Positions 2,997 through 44,906 of a stretch of 64,000 nt of DNA are shown piece by piece (the stretch's first letter is position 1; every line of letters starts with the position of its first letter). The translations under genes and the position numbers were made by a program. The notes beneath the pieces were generated by a model that saw nothing but the letters and a program-made list of their open reading frames with translations, had not been told where the DNA came from and did no database searches. This DNA is from Natronospira bacteriovora (GTDB lineage: Bacteria > Pseudomonadota > Gammaproteobacteria > Natronospirales > Natronospiraceae). The stretch covers positions 62,001 through 126,000 of the forward strand of contig NZ_JAVDDT010000002.1 of assembly GCF_030848495.1 (NCBI RefSeq), in the 5' to 3' direction.

Positions 2997-3098
2997 GGGT
3001 CTTGGTGGCCCTGACCAGAACACGCCGTGAATACATCCCTGTAGGCTCGAGGGAAACATCCCTGTTTCCCACGGTTCTGGTCAGGGCCACCAAGACCC
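2997..3098. repeat. Structured palindromic element B1: 25-bp arms around a two-hairpin core
   Basis: The arms 2997-3021 and 3074-3098 are perfect reverse complements over 25 bases (GGGTCTTGGTGG...). The 52-base interior can form two hairpins with the identical loop ATCCCT: TAC-ATCCCT-GTA (3032-3043) and GGGAAAC-ATCCCT-GTTTCCC (3051-3070). Overall this is a three-way junction. The interior matches the cores at 41571-41624 (reverse strand) and 41325-41366, but the arms do not. It lies in the gene-free spacer after the rplS terminator. Confidence 0.8.
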
Positions 3099-12117: not shown

Positions 12118-12238
<121 letters not shown>

Positions 12239-14973: not shown

Positions 14974-15171
14974 GGAACCACCGAAGACACCGAAAGAAAC
15001 AAAAGCATTAACGCAGAAAGCAATTCAAATGACGTTCACGCGGCAGGCGAACCGCCTCTCATCAGCCAGTTACTAACCTGAGACACAAAAAATTTCTCCG
15101 TGTTCTCTGCCTTCTCCGGGCTAAAGCGTTTCCTCTTTTTTTTCGGTGTATTCGGCGTCTTCGGTGGTTCC
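14974..15171. repeat. Palindromic repeat A1 (CACCGAAGA units) between kbl and tdh
   Basis: The arm 14974-14994 (GGAACCACCGAAGACACCGA...) pairs with 15151-15171 with one mismatch. The right side carries one more nine-base unit (TTCGGTGTA, 15142-15150). The 156-base interior shows no gene. It is one of three copies of the same arm type within 5.2 kb. Confidence 0.8.
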
Positions 15172-18396: not shown

Positions 18397-18917
18397 GAGC
18401 CCTATTGTCGGCACTGGTGCTTTCGCTCCTGTTTCCCTTCAATCTTCATGCAGACGGAGTGGGGGAGCTGCCCGCCGAGATCCGTGAAAGCAGTGACTGG
18501 CAGGTGAAGGGAACGGCCCGTCTGCGGGCTTATCTCTTCCACGTCTACGACGGTGCCCTTTGGACCACCAACGGTGAATGGGGTTGGGATGAGCCATTCG
18601 TGCTGGATTTTCGCTATGCCAGGCGCCTGAACGGAGCTGACATTGCCGAGCGGGGCGCAAAGGAAATGCAGGCCCTCGGCCACTGTGAGGAGCTAAAGGA
18701 TTGCTGGCTGGAGGAGCAGAAGAAGGCCTTTCCCGATGTCGCCGACGGTGACCGCATTACCGGATGGTACCGGCCGGGTCAGCCAACCCGCTTTTATTTC
18801 AACGGCGAGTTTCACCACCAGGTGGACGATCCGGATTTCGCTCGCCCCTTCTTCGAAATCTGGATGAGCGAAGACACCAGTGAACCTGCCTTCCGGCGGC
18901 GTCTGCTGGGACTGTGA
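18393..18917 (+). CDS. Exported chalcone-isomerase-like protein
   Basis: The 174-residue product begins with a signal peptide (ALLSALVLSLLFPFNLHA), followed by a domain I assign to the bacterial chalcone-isomerase-like family (GTARLRAYLFHVYDGALW; then FVLDFRYARRLNGADIAERGAKEM). These proteins seldom act on flavonoids; binding of fatty acids is a common suggestion. It is the last gene of the three-gene operon. Its stop codon lies inside the left arm of palindromic repeat A2. Confidence 0.82.
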   Translation: MRALLSALVLSLLFPFNLHADGVGELPAEIRESSDWQVKGTARLRAYLFHVYDGALWTTNGEWGWDEPFVLDFRYARRLNGADIAERGAKEMQALGHCEELKDCWLEEQKKAFPDVADGDRITGWYRPGQPTRFYFNGEFHHQVDDPDFARPFFEIWMSEDTSEPAFRRRLLGL

Positions 18918-19071
18918 AAACCTGGAACCACCGAAAACGCCGAAGACACCGAAGGACCCATTGTGTGCCACGGGTGCCGCCCTTGCCCCGAGCCATTGAT
19001 ATTCTCTGAGGCCCACTATGATTGCATTTTACTGTCGGTGTCTTCGGCGTTTTCAGTGGTTCCAGGGTTTC
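18916..19071. repeat. Palindromic repeat A2 (CACCGAAGA units)
   Basis: The arms 18916-18952 and 19035-19071 are complementary over 37 bases with two mismatches (GGAACCACCGAAAACGCCGA...). The interior is 82 bases. The first base of the left arm is already in the stop codon region of the upstream gene. The unit order differs from A3, but each arm matches its own partner. Confidence 0.87.
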
Positions 19072-19537: not shown

Positions 19538-19993
19538 ATGCCGAAACCCCAGACCCCCTTGTTGACGGTGGATGTGGTCATCGAGAAGCCGGATCGCAAT
19601 GACGGGCGGATCGTGCTCATCGAGCGGCACCATGAACCCCTGGGCTGGGCATTGCCCGGTGGTTTCGTGGACGTGGGTGAGACAGTGGAGCGGGCCGCCA
19701 TGCGTGAGGTCTGGGAAGAAACCGGCCTGGATGTCCGTCTGGTGGCTTTGCTCGGTGTCTACTCCGATCCCCGCCGGGATCCGCGCGGTCACAATGTCAG
19801 CATCACCTATGTCGGTCGTGCCGTGGGTACCCCCCGGGCCGGTGACGACGCTCGGGCCATCCAGCTGGCGGATCCCGCCAAGCCGCCCCCCCTGGCCTTC
19901 GACCACGGCCTCATCCTGCACGACTACCTGCGCTGGCGCGACAAGGGCGAATGCGCCCCCGTCCGGCCCCTGCCCGTGCCGGACAAGCCCTGA
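19538..19993 (+). CDS. NUDIX hydrolase
   Basis: This 151-residue hydrolase cleaves a nucleoside diphosphate linked to some group. The Nudix box is complete (GGFVDVGETVERAAMREVWE, then ETGL), with all Mg2+ ligands. The strand LLGVYSDPRRDPRGHNVSIT resembles ADP-ribose or nicotinamide-nucleotide pyrophosphatases, but the substrate cannot be fixed. Start: ATG with CAGGAG upstream. The stop codon lies at the start of palindromic repeat A3. Confidence 0.88.
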   Translation: MPKPQTPLLTVDVVIEKPDRNDGRIVLIERHHEPLGWALPGGFVDVGETVERAAMREVWEETGLDVRLVALLGVYSDPRRDPRGHNVSITYVGRAVGTPRAGDDARAIQLADPAKPPPLAFDHGLILHDYLRWRDKGECAPVRPLPVPDKP

Positions 19994-20182
19994 AAACCTT
20001 GTAACCACCGAAGACGCCGAAAACACCGAAGAAGACCCGAAAGATCAAGCACGTAGACAAAGTAAAGCGGCAGTGCTCAAGTGCTTGAACCCTCCATACA
20101 TCCGGTGTTCTCTGTAGTTGACGGTTTTTCGCCCTTGAATTTCTTCGGTGTTTTCGGCGTCTTCGGTGGTTACAAGGTTTTC
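19992..20182. repeat. Palindromic repeat A3 (CACCGAAGA units), perfect 42-bp arms
   Basis: The arms 19992-20033 and 20141-20182 are perfect complements over 42 bases. Compared with A1 and A2 the arm has TTGTAACC in place of CTGGAACC, and the facing arm has GGTTACAAG in place of GGTTCCAG, so the changes are compensatory. The 107-base interior has no gene. Confidence 0.92.
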
Positions 20183-20298
20183 GCGGCTAGCCCGGCGCCG
20201 GGAAATCGTGGTCGGATTTCGGTATAATGGACGTTTTTTCGCCCCCGGCCATGCGCTCGGGGGCGGCTTCGTATTGTCAAAACTCCAAGGAGCACTCC

Positions 20299-36803: not shown

Positions 36804-36965
36804 GGAAGCACGGGTGGACTCCCGGCTGCACGCTTCCGCGTCTGTGGACTGCAGCTCCTGCGTTGCAGCACTTGCCCGTAGCGCTGCTACTGTGCGGCGT
36901 GCTGCGCCTTGGATCAGCAGCCCACAGACGCGGAATCGCACAGTCGGGAGCCCACCCGTGCTTCC
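36804..36965. repeat. Structured palindromic element F1 between lexA and imuA
   Basis: The arms 36804-36848 and 36921-36965 pair over 45 bases with about six mismatches (GGAAGCACGGGTGG...). The core 36862-36913 (GTTGCAGCACTTGCCCGTAG, then GCTACTGTGC and GCTGCGCCTTGGA) recurs at 41222-41273. Inside the core GCAGCA pairs with TGCTGC and GTAG with CTAC. The element would put a long hairpin into the lexA-imuA mRNA. Confidence 0.85.
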
Positions 36966-40614: not shown

Positions 40615-40920
40615 ATGGAACCTTCCCGGCAATCAGTCTGGTGGCTTTATCTTCTCGATTGCGACGGTCGCCTGTATACCGGCGTTACCACCGACGTGGA
40701 CCGGCGTCTGTCCGAGCACCGACAGGGCCAATCCCGTGGCGCCCGCTTCACTCGCGGCGCCGGGCGAATCGAGCTCGTCTATCAGATCGCGCTCAATGAT
40801 CGTAGCGAGGCCTTGCGTGCCGAGGCCCGTCTGCGGCGCCTGCGACGTCCGGAGAAGCTGGCCGTCGTTGAGGCGGATTTGGGGCGTGTCGCGTTGTTGG
40901 CGCGGCTTGGTCTTGGTTGA
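40615..40920 (+). CDS. GIY-YIG nuclease-family protein (YhbQ-like)
   Basis: This 101-residue single-domain protein has the GIY-YIG fold: VWWLYLLDCDGRLYTGVTTDVDRRLSEH contains the LYLL...LYTG version of the GIY-YIG motif and the catalytic arginine, followed by GARFTRGAGRIELVY. Small proteins of this group bind or nick DNA; the exact role is unsettled. It is transcribed away from fxsA. Its end overlaps the outer part of the palindrome cluster that precedes dnaE2. Confidence 0.9.
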   Translation: MEPSRQSVWWLYLLDCDGRLYTGVTTDVDRRLSEHRQGQSRGARFTRGAGRIELVYQIALNDRSEALRAEARLRRLRRPEKLAVVEADLGRVALLARLGLG

Positions 40921-41085
40921 GGGGGCTTCGATGGGGGTGTGAATCTTTCCAGATCGGTGGAGGGTTTGGCTTCGGATAGGCGCTGGACCCTTCGGCGACG
41001 GTAACGGGGCGTCTCGGCCTGGGGTCAGTCGGGGGCTTTGCAGGGACGCCGTGAGGGCCCCTACCTTCGCCCCCAACGAACCCGC

Positions 41086-41187
41086 GACCGCACGTATTTC
41101 GTCTCTCGTGCGGCGCGCCGAGCGTGGTGTAGCCGCTGTGCTACATAAGCGAGGCGCAACAAAGCGAGAGACGAAATACGTGCGGTC
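41086..41187. repeat. Palindromic element P4: 23-bp arms, F core in reverse orientation
   Basis: The arms 41086-41108 and 41165-41187 are perfect complements (GACCGCACGTATTTCGTCTC...). On the minus strand the interior begins GTTGCGCC and contains GTAGC-ACAGCG-GCTAC, the same plan as the cores at 36862 and 41222, with substantial sequence divergence. Confidence 0.8.
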
Positions 41188-41194
41188 CCTCCGG

Positions 41195-41294
41195 GTTCAC
41201 AGTGAGATCCGCCGCTCCGGTGTTGCAGTGCTTGCCCGTAGTCGAACTACTGTGCTGCGCACTGCGCCTTGGAGCGACGAATCTCACTGTGAAC
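41195..41294. repeat. Palindromic element P5: 24-bp arms, F core
   Basis: The arms 41195-41218 and 41271-41294 pair with two mismatches (GTTCACAGTGAGAT at the outside is exact). The core 41222-41273 matches that of element F1 over 52 bases with 10 differences. GCAGTG/CACTGC replaces GCAGCA/TGCTGC, so both sides of the stem changed together. Confidence 0.82.
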
Positions 41295-41407
41295 GCGGGT
41301 TCGTTGGGGGCGAAGGTAGGGGCCTAATCCCTGGAGGCTCTGGTCGCGACGTCCTGTCGCTCACAGCCCTGCAAAGCCCCCGACTGACCCCAGGCCTAAT
41401 GTTGGGT

Positions 41408-41530
41408 GGTGTCACCTTTGCCGTGCCTGCGGAAAGCAACGTTCAGGCTTTAACTTGAAGAGCCGTTCCTCAAAGCCGCGTGCACTGCCGCCTGAACACA
41501 ACCCTCGGTTGGCACCAGCGAGGTGACACC
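41408..41530. repeat. Weak palindrome P7
   Basis: GGTGTCACCT (41408-41417) faces AGGTGACACC (41521-41530), and GTTCAGG (41441-41447) faces CCTGAAC (41491-41497). The remainder does not pair well. It may be an older, decayed element. Confidence 0.5.
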
Positions 41531-41541
41531 CTCCTAGAGGA

Positions 41542-41653
41542 GGTCCTGTATCGGGTGGGCTTGCTCAGGGCTGTGAGCGACATGGATGTCGCGACCAGAG
41601 CCTCCAGGGATGGATTTACGGCGTCCCTGAGCAAGCCCACCCGATACAGGACC
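41542..41653. repeat. Palindromic element P6 (B2): perfect 29-bp arms, intact B core in reverse orientation
   Basis: The arms 41542-41570 and 41625-41653 are perfect complements (GGTCCTGTATCGGGTGGGCT...). Read on the minus strand, the interior has ACGCCGTAAATCCATCCCTG and then hairpins TCC-ATCCCT-GGA and GCGAC-ATCCAT-GTCGC, as in element B1 at 3.0 kb but with different stem bases. Confidence 0.85.
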
Positions 41654-41794
41654 GGAACGCCCCCCGTCACCGACTTAGAAGGGTCCAAACCTCATCGAAG
41701 CCATACCCCATCACCAAGACCAAAGGGCCCAACGCCGACGGAAGCCATCCACCCCGAAAACACCACCCCAGATATCTTGCGATCAACAGCAATA

Positions 41795-41810
41795 CTGTGT
41801 TTTTATACAG
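41795..41810 (+). promoter_or_regulatory. LexA (SOS) box of dnaE2
   Basis: CTGTGTTTTTATACAG fits CTGT-N8-ACAG and lies 24 bases before the dnaE2 start, so dnaE2 should be induced with lexA-imuA-imuB although it is 2.7 kb away. Confidence 0.85.
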
Positions 41811-41834
41811 TCCCTATAAGCCGGGTACTGCCCC

Positions 41835-44800
41835 ATGCCCTACGCCGAACTCCATTGCCTGAGCAACTTCAGCTTCCTGCGCGGGGCCTCCCACGCCGGG
41901 GAACTGGTAGCGCGTGCGGCGGAGCTGGGGTATCGGGCTCTGGCCATCACCGACGAGTGCTCGGTGGCCGGTGCAGTGCGGGCCCACCAGGCAGCCCGGC
42001 AGCAGGGTCTGCCCCTGATTCATGGCAGTGAATTCCGTCTCGACGACGGTCTGCGTTTCGTCGCCCTGGTCAGTGACCGTCGGGCCTGGGCCCGGCTGTG
42101 TGCCCTGATCACCACCGGCCGGCGGGCGGCAGGGAAGGGCAGTTACCACCTCACGCGCAAGGATGTGATGGAGAACGGCCTGGCGGGCTGCCTCATCCTG
42201 TGGCTGCCCGGGCAGACAGCGGAAGAGGGCGAACTGGCCTGGCTGCGACAGCATTTTCACGACCGCCTGTGGATCACCGTGGAGCTGCTGGCGGAGGGGG
42301 ATGATCGTCGGCGATGTGATGCCCTCATGGCGCTGGGAGAGTCCAGCGGTGTGCCCTGCGTGGCGGCGGGGGATGTGCACATGCACCTGCGGGAACGCCG
42401 GACCCTGCAGGATACCCTGACGGCCCTGCGTCATCGTGTTCCCCTGGCCGATGCCGGCCTGGCCCTCTTTCCCAGTGGCGAGCGGCATCTGCGCCCCCTG
42501 AGTCGCCTGGCCCGCCTTTATCCCGCCGCTCTGATGGAAGAGACCGTGCGCATCGTCCGGCGCTGCGCCTTCAGCCTGGCGGAACTGCGTTACGAGTATC
42601 CGGCCGAGCTGGTGCCTGAGGGCGAAACAGCAGCCAGTTACCTGCGCAAGCGTGTACTGTCGGGCATGCAGCGGCGCTGGCCCCGGGGCGTGGCGTTTCG
42701 CCTGAAGCGCCAGATCGTGCGTGAACTCCAGCTCATTCATGAAATGGCCTATGAACCTTTCTTTCTCACCGTGGATGATGTCGTCGCCTTTGCCCGCTCC
42801 CGCGGCATTCTCTGCCAGGGGCGGGGGTCGGCCGCCAATTCCGTGGTCTGTTTCTGTCTCGGCATCACCGAGGTGGACCCGGCGCGCATGAACGTGCTGT
42901 TCGAACGCTTCATCTCGAAGGAACGAGGTGAGCCACCGGATATCGACGTGGATTTCGAACACGAACGCCGCGAAGAAGTCATCCAGTACATCTACGGCAA
43001 GTATGGGCGGGCCCGTGCCGCGCTGGCGGCCACGGTGATTGCCTATCGCCCGCGTTCCGCCGTGCGCGATGTGGGGCGGGCGCTGGGGCTGGATTCGGCC
43101 CGGCTGGATCGTCTGGCCTCTGCCTTCCAGTGGTGGGATGGTCTCAAGGCCCGGCGGGAAAGACTGCAGGAAGCCGGGGAAGACCCGGACAATCCGGTGA
43201 TTCGTCGACTGATGGTGCTGGTCAACACCCTGATCGGCTTTCCCCGGCATCTGTCCCAGCATGTGGGCGGCTTCGTCATTTCCGACGGGCCGCTGCATGA
43301 ACTGGTGCCGGTGGAGAATGCGGCCATGTCGGATCGCACCGTGATCCAGTGGGACAAGGATGATCTGGAAGCGCTGGGGCTGCTCAAGGTGGATATTCTG
43401 GCCCTGGGCATGCTCACGGCCATTCGCCGCTGCTTTGCACTGATCGGGCAATGGTCCGGTCATCACTGGGAGCTGGCCGATATCCCGGCCGAGGACGGCC
43501 GGGTCTATGACATGCTCTGCCGGGCGGACACCATGGGCGTCTTCCAGATCGAGTCCCGCGCCCAGATGGCCATGCTGCCCCGCTTGCGGCCTCGCACCTT
43601 CTACGATCTGGTCATCGAGGTGGCCATTGTGCGCCCGGGCCCCATCCAGGGCGACATGGTGCACCCTTACCTCAGTCGACGCTGTGGCGAAGAGCCGGTG
43701 GACTACCCCAGCCCGGAAGTGAAGGCCGTGCTGGAGCGCACGCTGGGGGTTCCCATCTTCCAGGAGCAGGTCATGCAGCTGGCCATCGTGGCCGCCGGTT
43801 TCAGCCCCGGGGAGGCCGACCAGCTGCGACGCTCCATGGCCGCCTGGAAGAAGCGCGGTGGCCTGGGGCATTTCGAGGATCGTCTCATCAACGGCATGCG
43901 CGAACGGGGTTACAGCGAGGATTTTGCCCGCCGGGTCTTCAAGCAGATTCAGGGTTTTGGCGAATACGGTTTTCCCGAATCCCATTCCGCCAGCTTTGCC
44001 CTGCTGGTGTACGTCTCGGCCTGGCTCAAGTGCCATGAACCGGCTGCCTTCTGTGCGGCGCTGCTCAACAGCCAGCCCATGGGGTTCTACGCCCCGGCCC
44101 AGCTGGTCCGTGATGCCCGGGAGCACGGCGTGACGGTGTATCCGGTGGATGTGCGTCACAGTCAGTGGGAATGCACCCTGGAACCCGATGAAGACGGTGC
44201 CCCGGCCCTGCGACTGGGCCTCAACCGGATCAAGGGCCTGGCCCGGGAGGTGGGGGAAAGGGTGGCAAGGGTCATGACGGCCGTGGACGGTGCGATCGGC
44301 AGTGTGGATGAGCTCCGGCACCGGGCCGGGCTGGATCGGCGGGCGGTGGATGCCCTGGCGGATGCCGGGGCTCTGGCTTCACTGGCCGGTCACCGTCACC
44401 GGGCCCGCTGGGCAGCGGCCGGCATTGAAGCGCCCACCCCCCTGTTTGCCTCAGGTGCCGTGGCGGAAGCGGAACCCATGCTGAGAAAACCCCGTGAAGG
44501 GGAGGACCTGCTGGCCGATTACGGGCGCCTGGGCCTGAGTCTCGGGCGGCACCCCCTGGCCCTGCTGCGGGATCGCCTGGAAGGCTGGCAGACCGCGGCC
44601 GACCTCTGGCAATGCCCCGCCGACAGTCCGGTATTGACCGGCGGGCTGGTGATCAATCGCCAGCGCCCGGGCAGTGCCCGGGGGGTGACCTTCATGACCC
44701 TGGAAGATGAAACGGGCAACATCAACCTCATCTGCTGGCGCCGGCTGGCGGAACAGTATCGCCCCGTGGTGCTCAATGCCCGCCTGCTCATGGTGGTCGG

Positions 44801-44906
44801 CACGGTACAGCGGGAGCATGGTGTCCAGCATGTCATTGCCCGCCACCTGGAGGACTGGGGCCATCTGCTTGGACGCCTCATGCACCGCTCACGGGATTTT
44901 CGCTGA
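41835..44906 (+). CDS. dnaE2: Error-prone DNA polymerase DnaE2 (ImuC)
   Basis: DnaE2 is the C-family polymerase that copies past lesions in the ImuA-ImuB-DnaE2 pathway. The 1023-residue protein has the N-terminal PHP domain (AELHCLSNFSFLRGASHAGE, TDECSVAGAVRAH), the palm with catalytic aspartates in PDIDVDFEHERR (369, 371 and 373), FIQWDKDD-like VIQWDKDDLEALGLLKVDIL, the helix-hairpin-helix part and a C-terminal OB fold (GGLVINRQRPGSARGVTFMT). The shorter length and lack of the tau-binding tail separate it from the replicative DnaE. Its own SOS box is upstream. Confidence 0.96.
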   Translation: MPYAELHCLSNFSFLRGASHAGELVARAAELGYRALAITDECSVAGAVRAHQAARQQGLPLIHGSEFRLDDGLRFVALVSDRRAWARLCALITTGRRAAGKGSYHLTRKDVMENGLAGCLILWLPGQTAEEGELAWLRQHFHDRLWITVELLAEGDDRRRCDALMALGESSGVPCVAAGDVHMHLRERRTLQDTLTALRHRVPLADAGLALFPSGERHLRPLSRLARLYPAALMEETVRIVRRCAFSLAELRYEYPAELVPEGETAASYLRKRVLSGMQRRWPRGVAFRLKRQIVRELQLIHEMAYEPFFLTVDDVVAFARSRGILCQGRGSAANSVVCFCLGITEVDPARMNVLFERFISKERGEPPDIDVDFEHERREEVIQYIYGKYGRARAALAATVIAYRPRSAVRDVGRALGLDSARLDRLASAFQWWDGLKARRERLQEAGEDPDNPVIRRLMVLVNTLIGFPRHLSQHVGGFVISDGPLHELVPVENAAMSDRTVIQWDKDDLEALGLLKVDILALGMLTAIRRCFALIGQWSGHHWELADIPAEDGRVYDMLCRADTMGVFQIESRAQMAMLPRLRPRTFYDLVIEVAIVRPGPIQGDMVHPYLSRRCGEEPVDYPSPEVKAVLERTLGVPIFQEQVMQLAIVAAGFSPGEADQLRRSMAAWKKRGGLGHFEDRLINGMRERGYSEDFARRVFKQIQGFGEYGFPESHSASFALLVYVSAWLKCHEPAAFCAALLNSQPMGFYAPAQLVRDAREHGVTVYPVDVRHSQWECTLEPDEDGAPALRLGLNRIKGLAREVGERVARVMTAVDGAIGSVDELRHRAGLDRRAVDALADAGALASLAGHRHRARWAAAGIEAPTPLFASGAVAEAEPMLRKPREGEDLLADYGRLGLSLGRHPLALLRDRLEGWQTAADLWQCPADSPVLTGGLVINRQRPGSARGVTFMTLEDETGNINLICWRRLAEQYRPVVLNARLLMVVGTVQREHGVQHVIARHLEDWGHLLGRLMHRSRDFR

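Follow-up and report, generated by a model that had tools for sequence, protein, structure and literature searches.

Several described systems resemble parts of the locus reported here. IS5-family MITEs are gene-less elements that share terminal inverted repeats with an autonomous insertion sequence and are flanked by 4-bp YTAR duplications, and REP and REPIN sequences with their RAYT transposases are multicopy intergenic palindromes. Inverted repeats are also reshaped during replication, since in E. coli template switching improves the match between the arms of imperfect inverted repeats (PMC7202029), and it has been proposed to create and maintain perfect stems (PMC8794818). Arms that are almost perfect and multi-base changes that come in pairs are expected from this process, which is known from reporters and RNA genes (PMC7202029; PMC8794818). 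As most stems belong to functional RNAs, it is difficult to test whether template switching or selection keeps them intact. Long perfect inverted repeats have further been described as coding palindromes in the mitochondria of Nematomorpha (PMC6649704).

The window analysed here is a stretch of 64,000 nucleotides from Natronospira bacteriovora, a soda-lake bacterium (genome G000). It contains an 830-base intergenic block (40902-41735) between a GIY-YIG gene and dnaE2, in the imuA/imuB/dnaE2 region. A sequence-only reading had described nested inverted arms in this block and every set of them was recovered (Table 1), the longest perfect inverted repeat being 31 bp compared with 8-11 bp in 30 dinucleotide-block shuffles. 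The perfect arm lengths it gave for P2, P3, P4 and P6 stand, while P5 is not a perfect 24 bp but an imperfect stem with 25 of 28 positions paired. P1 was rightly called imperfect, consisting of three stretches of 75-83% across 40907-41723 with the conserved part TGGACCCTTCG..CGGTGACGGGG, and P7 is indeed weak (about 41399-41541). The P2 core is split by P3 as described, with ACGCCGTGA before and TAATCCCTGG after it, and the unsplit core is found in P6.

Table 1. Features of the window; positions are counted from its first letter.
Feature	Position	Strand	Remarks
B' hairpin	2997..3098	+	25-bp perfect arms; one of several copies sharing arms; uninterrupted counterpart of L035
F2-type hairpin, LexA-like gene to imuA	36804..36965	+	49-nt imperfect arms
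GIY-YIG domain gene	40615..40920	+	borders the block, no part of the element
P1, outer imperfect stem of the P1/B composite	40907..41723	.	arms about 40907-41009 and 41662-41723; compared with the L031 paralogue
P2, first B hairpin, split by P3	41016..41396	+	arms 41016-41045/41367-41396, 30 bp perfect, plus B core
P3, F composite inside the P2 core	41056..41324	+	stem 41056-41086/41294-41324, 31 bp perfect, encloses two hairpins
P4, F1 hairpin of the F composite	41086..41187	+	arms 41086-41108/41165-41187, 23 bp perfect
P5, F2 hairpin of the F composite	41191..41298	+	arms 41191-41218/41271-41298, 28 bp, 89%, 25/28 paired
P7, weak central hairpin region of the P1/B composite	41397..41541	+	hosts a REP pair in several G001 copies
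P6, second B hairpin, unsplit core	41542..41653	-	arms 41542-41570/41625-41653, 29 bp perfect; orientation opposite to P2
dnaE2 (error-prone DNA polymerase III alpha type; DNA-repair polymerase)	41835..44906	+	neighbour downstream of the block

When delimited by comparing copies within the same genome, the block resolves into two composite units, P1/B and F. The P1/B composite has an imperfect outer stem around P2, P7 and then P6 in reverse orientation. Each of its B hairpins belongs to a type of about 110 bp in which 25-43-bp arms enclose a conserved core of about 53 bp with two small hairpins. The F composite, about 270 bp in total (269 bp for P3), has a 31-32-bp stem around two hairpins of about 100 bp, F1 (P4) and F2 (P5).

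Empty sites were found at several levels of this nesting. Within the same genome, a paralogue at locus L031 is 90% identical to the window composite and has identical P2 and P6 arms, but lacks P3: seven bases take the place of the 269-bp P3 and a few altered bases of the window, and the unsplit counterpart of P2, with arms identical to those of P2, lies at L031:9605-9717. Two other P1/B composites were found at L032 and a form with one B hairpin at L033, and P3 has copies at L032:9583-9851 (96% identical) and in G001 at L076 (92%). The P3 copy at L032 also lies within a first B hairpin; in G001, the composite that follows the same gene has this B hairpin unbroken. The P1/B composite that G001 carries between the GIY-YIG gene and dnaE2 is a different one: it is reversed, contains a REP pair in P7 and is without P3. 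In G002, of the same genus, only about 80 bp separate the two genes and the whole block is missing. As judged from these comparisons, the gap that is so short in G002 holds a P1/B composite in G000, and the F composite (P3) entered the core of its first B hairpin. The earlier claims that one non-coding element entered another and that the elements are mobile are thus borne out by the L031 paralogue and by relatives, where empty sites had been expected and were found both for the whole block (G002) and for P3 (the G001 counterpart of L032). Elsewhere, an F element lies within a B' hairpin at L035, a composite upstream of infA is present in G001 and missing in G000, and two B hairpins of G255 are missing from G290.

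The sequence-only reading had also credited the elements with a taste for hairpin tips, which the nested cases do not support: insertions lie in the interior (loop side) of the host hairpins, beside or between the small internal hairpins and not at their tips, with the limit that interior sites are favoured by the way nested cases are recognised. P3 has either orientation relative to B, depending on the copy, and these differences may reflect independent insertion, inversion or conversion. Other stacks and inverted repeats were noted during the search. A further Russian-doll stack with arms up to 56 bp surrounds REP-like repeats at L033:4869-5510, and G001 has a P1/B composite at this intergenic place. 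In the window, a CACCGAAGACGCCGAAAA-like motif underlies long inverted repeats at 19978-20196, 18916-19071 and 14974-15171, and the intergenic stretch of G003 that corresponds to the first of them contains a B hairpin. Facing TCGTTG/CGACAA hexamer tracts form inverted repeats at 12152-12238 of the window, L033:10576-10705 and L037:9834-9957. A hairpin with inverted flanks at L202, near a contig end, was left out as a possible assembly artefact.

Both genes that border the block were considered. A LexA-box-like sequence, TACTGTGTTTTTATACAGT, was seen by eye at window 41791-41813, between the block and dnaE2, and a similar one also lies upstream of dnaE2 in G002 and G001; its retention near dnaE2 suggests that insertion of the block left a likely SOS control intact. 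On the other side, the GIY-YIG gene could be read as an Ssn-like single-strand nuclease whose target array is formed by the hairpins next to it, for which work on Neisseria Ssn reportedly offers a precedent. This is extremely improbable, given that G002 has the GIY-YIG gene without the block and that no clear hairpin enrichment was observed near 80 GIY-YIG homologues (0.060 vs 0.048 per kb). The position of this gene beside the block appears coincidental.

The cores were predicted to recur elsewhere, and they do. A search with a covariance model of B yielded about 26 B hairpins in this genome and similar numbers in G001-G003, and of the 274 Gammaproteobacteria sampled it matched 44, of 39 genera; copies of F also occur at other loci. 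Searching with one G255 locus revealed dozens more B places in G255. No plasmid match was obtained by blastn with one F and one B element, a result that is weak for B because the B arms vary.

We then considered what moves these elements. As had been noted, no transposase is nearby, none being present among the neighbouring genes examined from 34.6 to 45 kb. For one class of F elements, those ending in GGAACC, the copies themselves are informative. Copies from unrelated loci of different species have 90-94% identity, compared with mostly about 65-86% for shared genes, and several are flanked by target duplications of CTAA at L037, CTAG at L090 and TTAG at L212 and L215, some copies having degenerate flanks. 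F copies share GGAACCTCTGATTAA ends with an IS5-family element at G000:C2:213199, the right end of which is imperfect (14/18) and which, among five genomes searched, was found with such ends only in G000. These F elements therefore have the features of IS5-type MITEs, namely no genes, terminal inverted repeats in common with a resident autonomous IS5-family relative, and YTAR duplications. Since the ends match and the duplications are of the YTAR type, an IS5-family transposase is the likely mover of the GGAACC-ended F elements. They differ from IS5-family MITEs in their long stem with two internal hairpins, their size range of 36 to about 360 bp and the paired changes in their stems. In G001, perfect palindromes of 36-38 bp at L210 and L215 consist only of two joined GGAACCTCTGATTAA ends, and the one at L215 has the TTAG duplication.

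P3 and the P1/B composite, in contrast to IS5-family MITEs, have no recognised YTAR duplication. P3 has GGCC.. ends and flanks of GTGA and TAAT, and at its junction one short target stretch is altered, not duplicated. The outer arms of the P1/B composite are alike between copies and its ends are not sharp; no target duplication was recognised by eye for P3, B or the P1/B composite. For P3 and the P1/B composite this, together with the altered stretch, counts against the explanation favoured below. A REP-type (RAYT/Y1) transposase, which the sequence-only reading had proposed to look for, is present in the genome, but the palindromes adjoining it (L045) are of the GGGAG..CTCCC type, not B or F, and it was rejected as the mover of either. 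The likeness to REP/REPIN systems is thus confined to multicopy intergenic palindromes, the REP pairs nested in P7 of G001 and the Y1 gene itself, whereas the sequences of B and F are not the REPs beside that gene and the variable arms are 25-43 bp long. In G265, a MITE of about 190 bp (L278-L284) with CAGCAATTCC ends and duplications of about 9 bp (by eye) contains a B hairpin, indicating that B can travel as a passenger.

The main oddity of the block, absent from the sequence-only reading, is that arms match within a copy and differ between copies. Within each of G000, G106 and G255, arm pairs differ by 55-61% between B copies and cores by 17-20%, and arm mismatch inside one B copy is 1.4-4.1%; it is higher, at 5-9%, in G002, G100 and G265. 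Paired changes exceed one-sided changes about 11- to 35-fold within the former three genomes, although these pairwise counts are not independent, since the same elements enter more than one of them. In a set of 28 B hairpins, both sides have changed at 23 of the 24 arm pairs, a value that almost no shuffle reached (0/500), and controls with slid partners were far lower, the signal being destroyed. The 13 F composites have 46 of 73 pairs changed on both sides; the F1 part of their alignment is one column off for the P3 group and was counted separately in the F-stem mismatch count.

Strong covariation in both B and F arms is also what functional RNAs or terminators would display, their paired changes being compensatory mutations under selection for RNA structure. 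The conserved core with two small hairpins and the broad spread among Gammaproteobacteria are consistent with such an origin. The mismatches are divided on this point. B arms comprise 2696 Watson-Crick pairs, 22 G-T pairs and 82 other mismatches, so that G-T is not favoured, unlike under RNA-stem selection, which predicts G-U pairs. G-T pairs do occur in the small core hairpins of B, and they exceed other mismatches in two of three F stems, many of them shared by descent; this excess in F agrees with the RNA reading and counts against template switching. An RNA whose 25-43-bp arms had for the most part no relation from one copy to the next within a genome would, however, be unusual, Rfam gives only hits far below the gathering score, and the same locus is empty in close relatives while elements are interrupted by others. 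We consider selection for RNA structure an unlikely explanation.

Where G000 and G001 have a B hairpin at a shared locus, the two copies differ by 14 paired and no one-sided changes in one case, and by five paired and four one-sided changes in another. These paired differences at one locus in two species argue against the arms being remade at each transposition, when one arm of a single-stranded hairpin would template the other and errors would go into both. Such remaking would yield new copies with perfect yet differing arms, but the same two arm positions are unpaired in all seven near-identical MITE copies of G265, whose sole variable arm site is one-sided, so that transposition by that route did not repair the arms. 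As no dedicated transposase was found either, arm remaking during transposition is quite unlikely.

Ectopic gene conversion among B copies, combined with selection for hairpins as DNA, would account for the right arm at L360 in G001 being the same as that at L076, an identity that counts against template switching to the extent that gene conversion also predicts it, and for the B hairpins of the window and L031 being more alike than their P7 regions, which match at 81% over a 145-bp stretch of the L031 paralogue. Copying from another copy cannot make new arm sequences, though, and arms in G255 and G106 are mostly unique to each locus. Gene conversion between copies probably contributes to the arm pattern, but as its main cause it is very unlikely.

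Changes on both arms, as expected from template switching, were found in B and in F, and in within-genome and same-locus comparisons alike. Homogenisation by template switching during replication is the most likely explanation of the paired arms. Taken together, the reading that we favour, with a probability of about 0.6, is a MITE-like stack of non-coding palindromes in which F lies inside a B core, arms are kept matched by replication template switching and mobility is provided in trans. A P1/B composite lies between the GIY-YIG gene and dnaE2, and an F composite (stem with P4 and P5) entered the core of its first B hairpin. Both arms of each long hairpin evolve jointly, presumably because the nascent strand folds back at the hairpin and copies its own arm, by which a mutation in one arm would be erased or passed on to the other. 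Mobility would be supplied in trans, putatively by an IS5-family transposase for the GGAACC-ended F elements. A bolder version, in which B is a widespread hairpin-copying mobile DNA whose core actively drives arm-to-arm copying through a host or element-linked factor for its own spread, is also quite improbable.

In literature that covered few subscription papers, neither the B core nor an arm pattern like this one was found described for bacterial mobile elements. Template switching known from reporters and RNA genes would here have left its trace in a mobile DNA family present in many genera. The Nematomorpha palindromes lie in mitochondrial protein genes (PMC6649704), whereas B and F are mobile intergenic DNA and B has a conserved core. 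B and F are variants of known palindromic mobile repeats, and what is new is the unusual clarity with which they record the paired evolution of arms, along with nested palindromic elements documented with empty sites at several levels. Paired changes by themselves are no proof of a functional RNA. The B family, which has dozens of copies per genome across many genera and whose arms of 25-43 bp look unconstrained and change in pairs, is a natural record in which to measure template switching, a little-seen copying error of replication.
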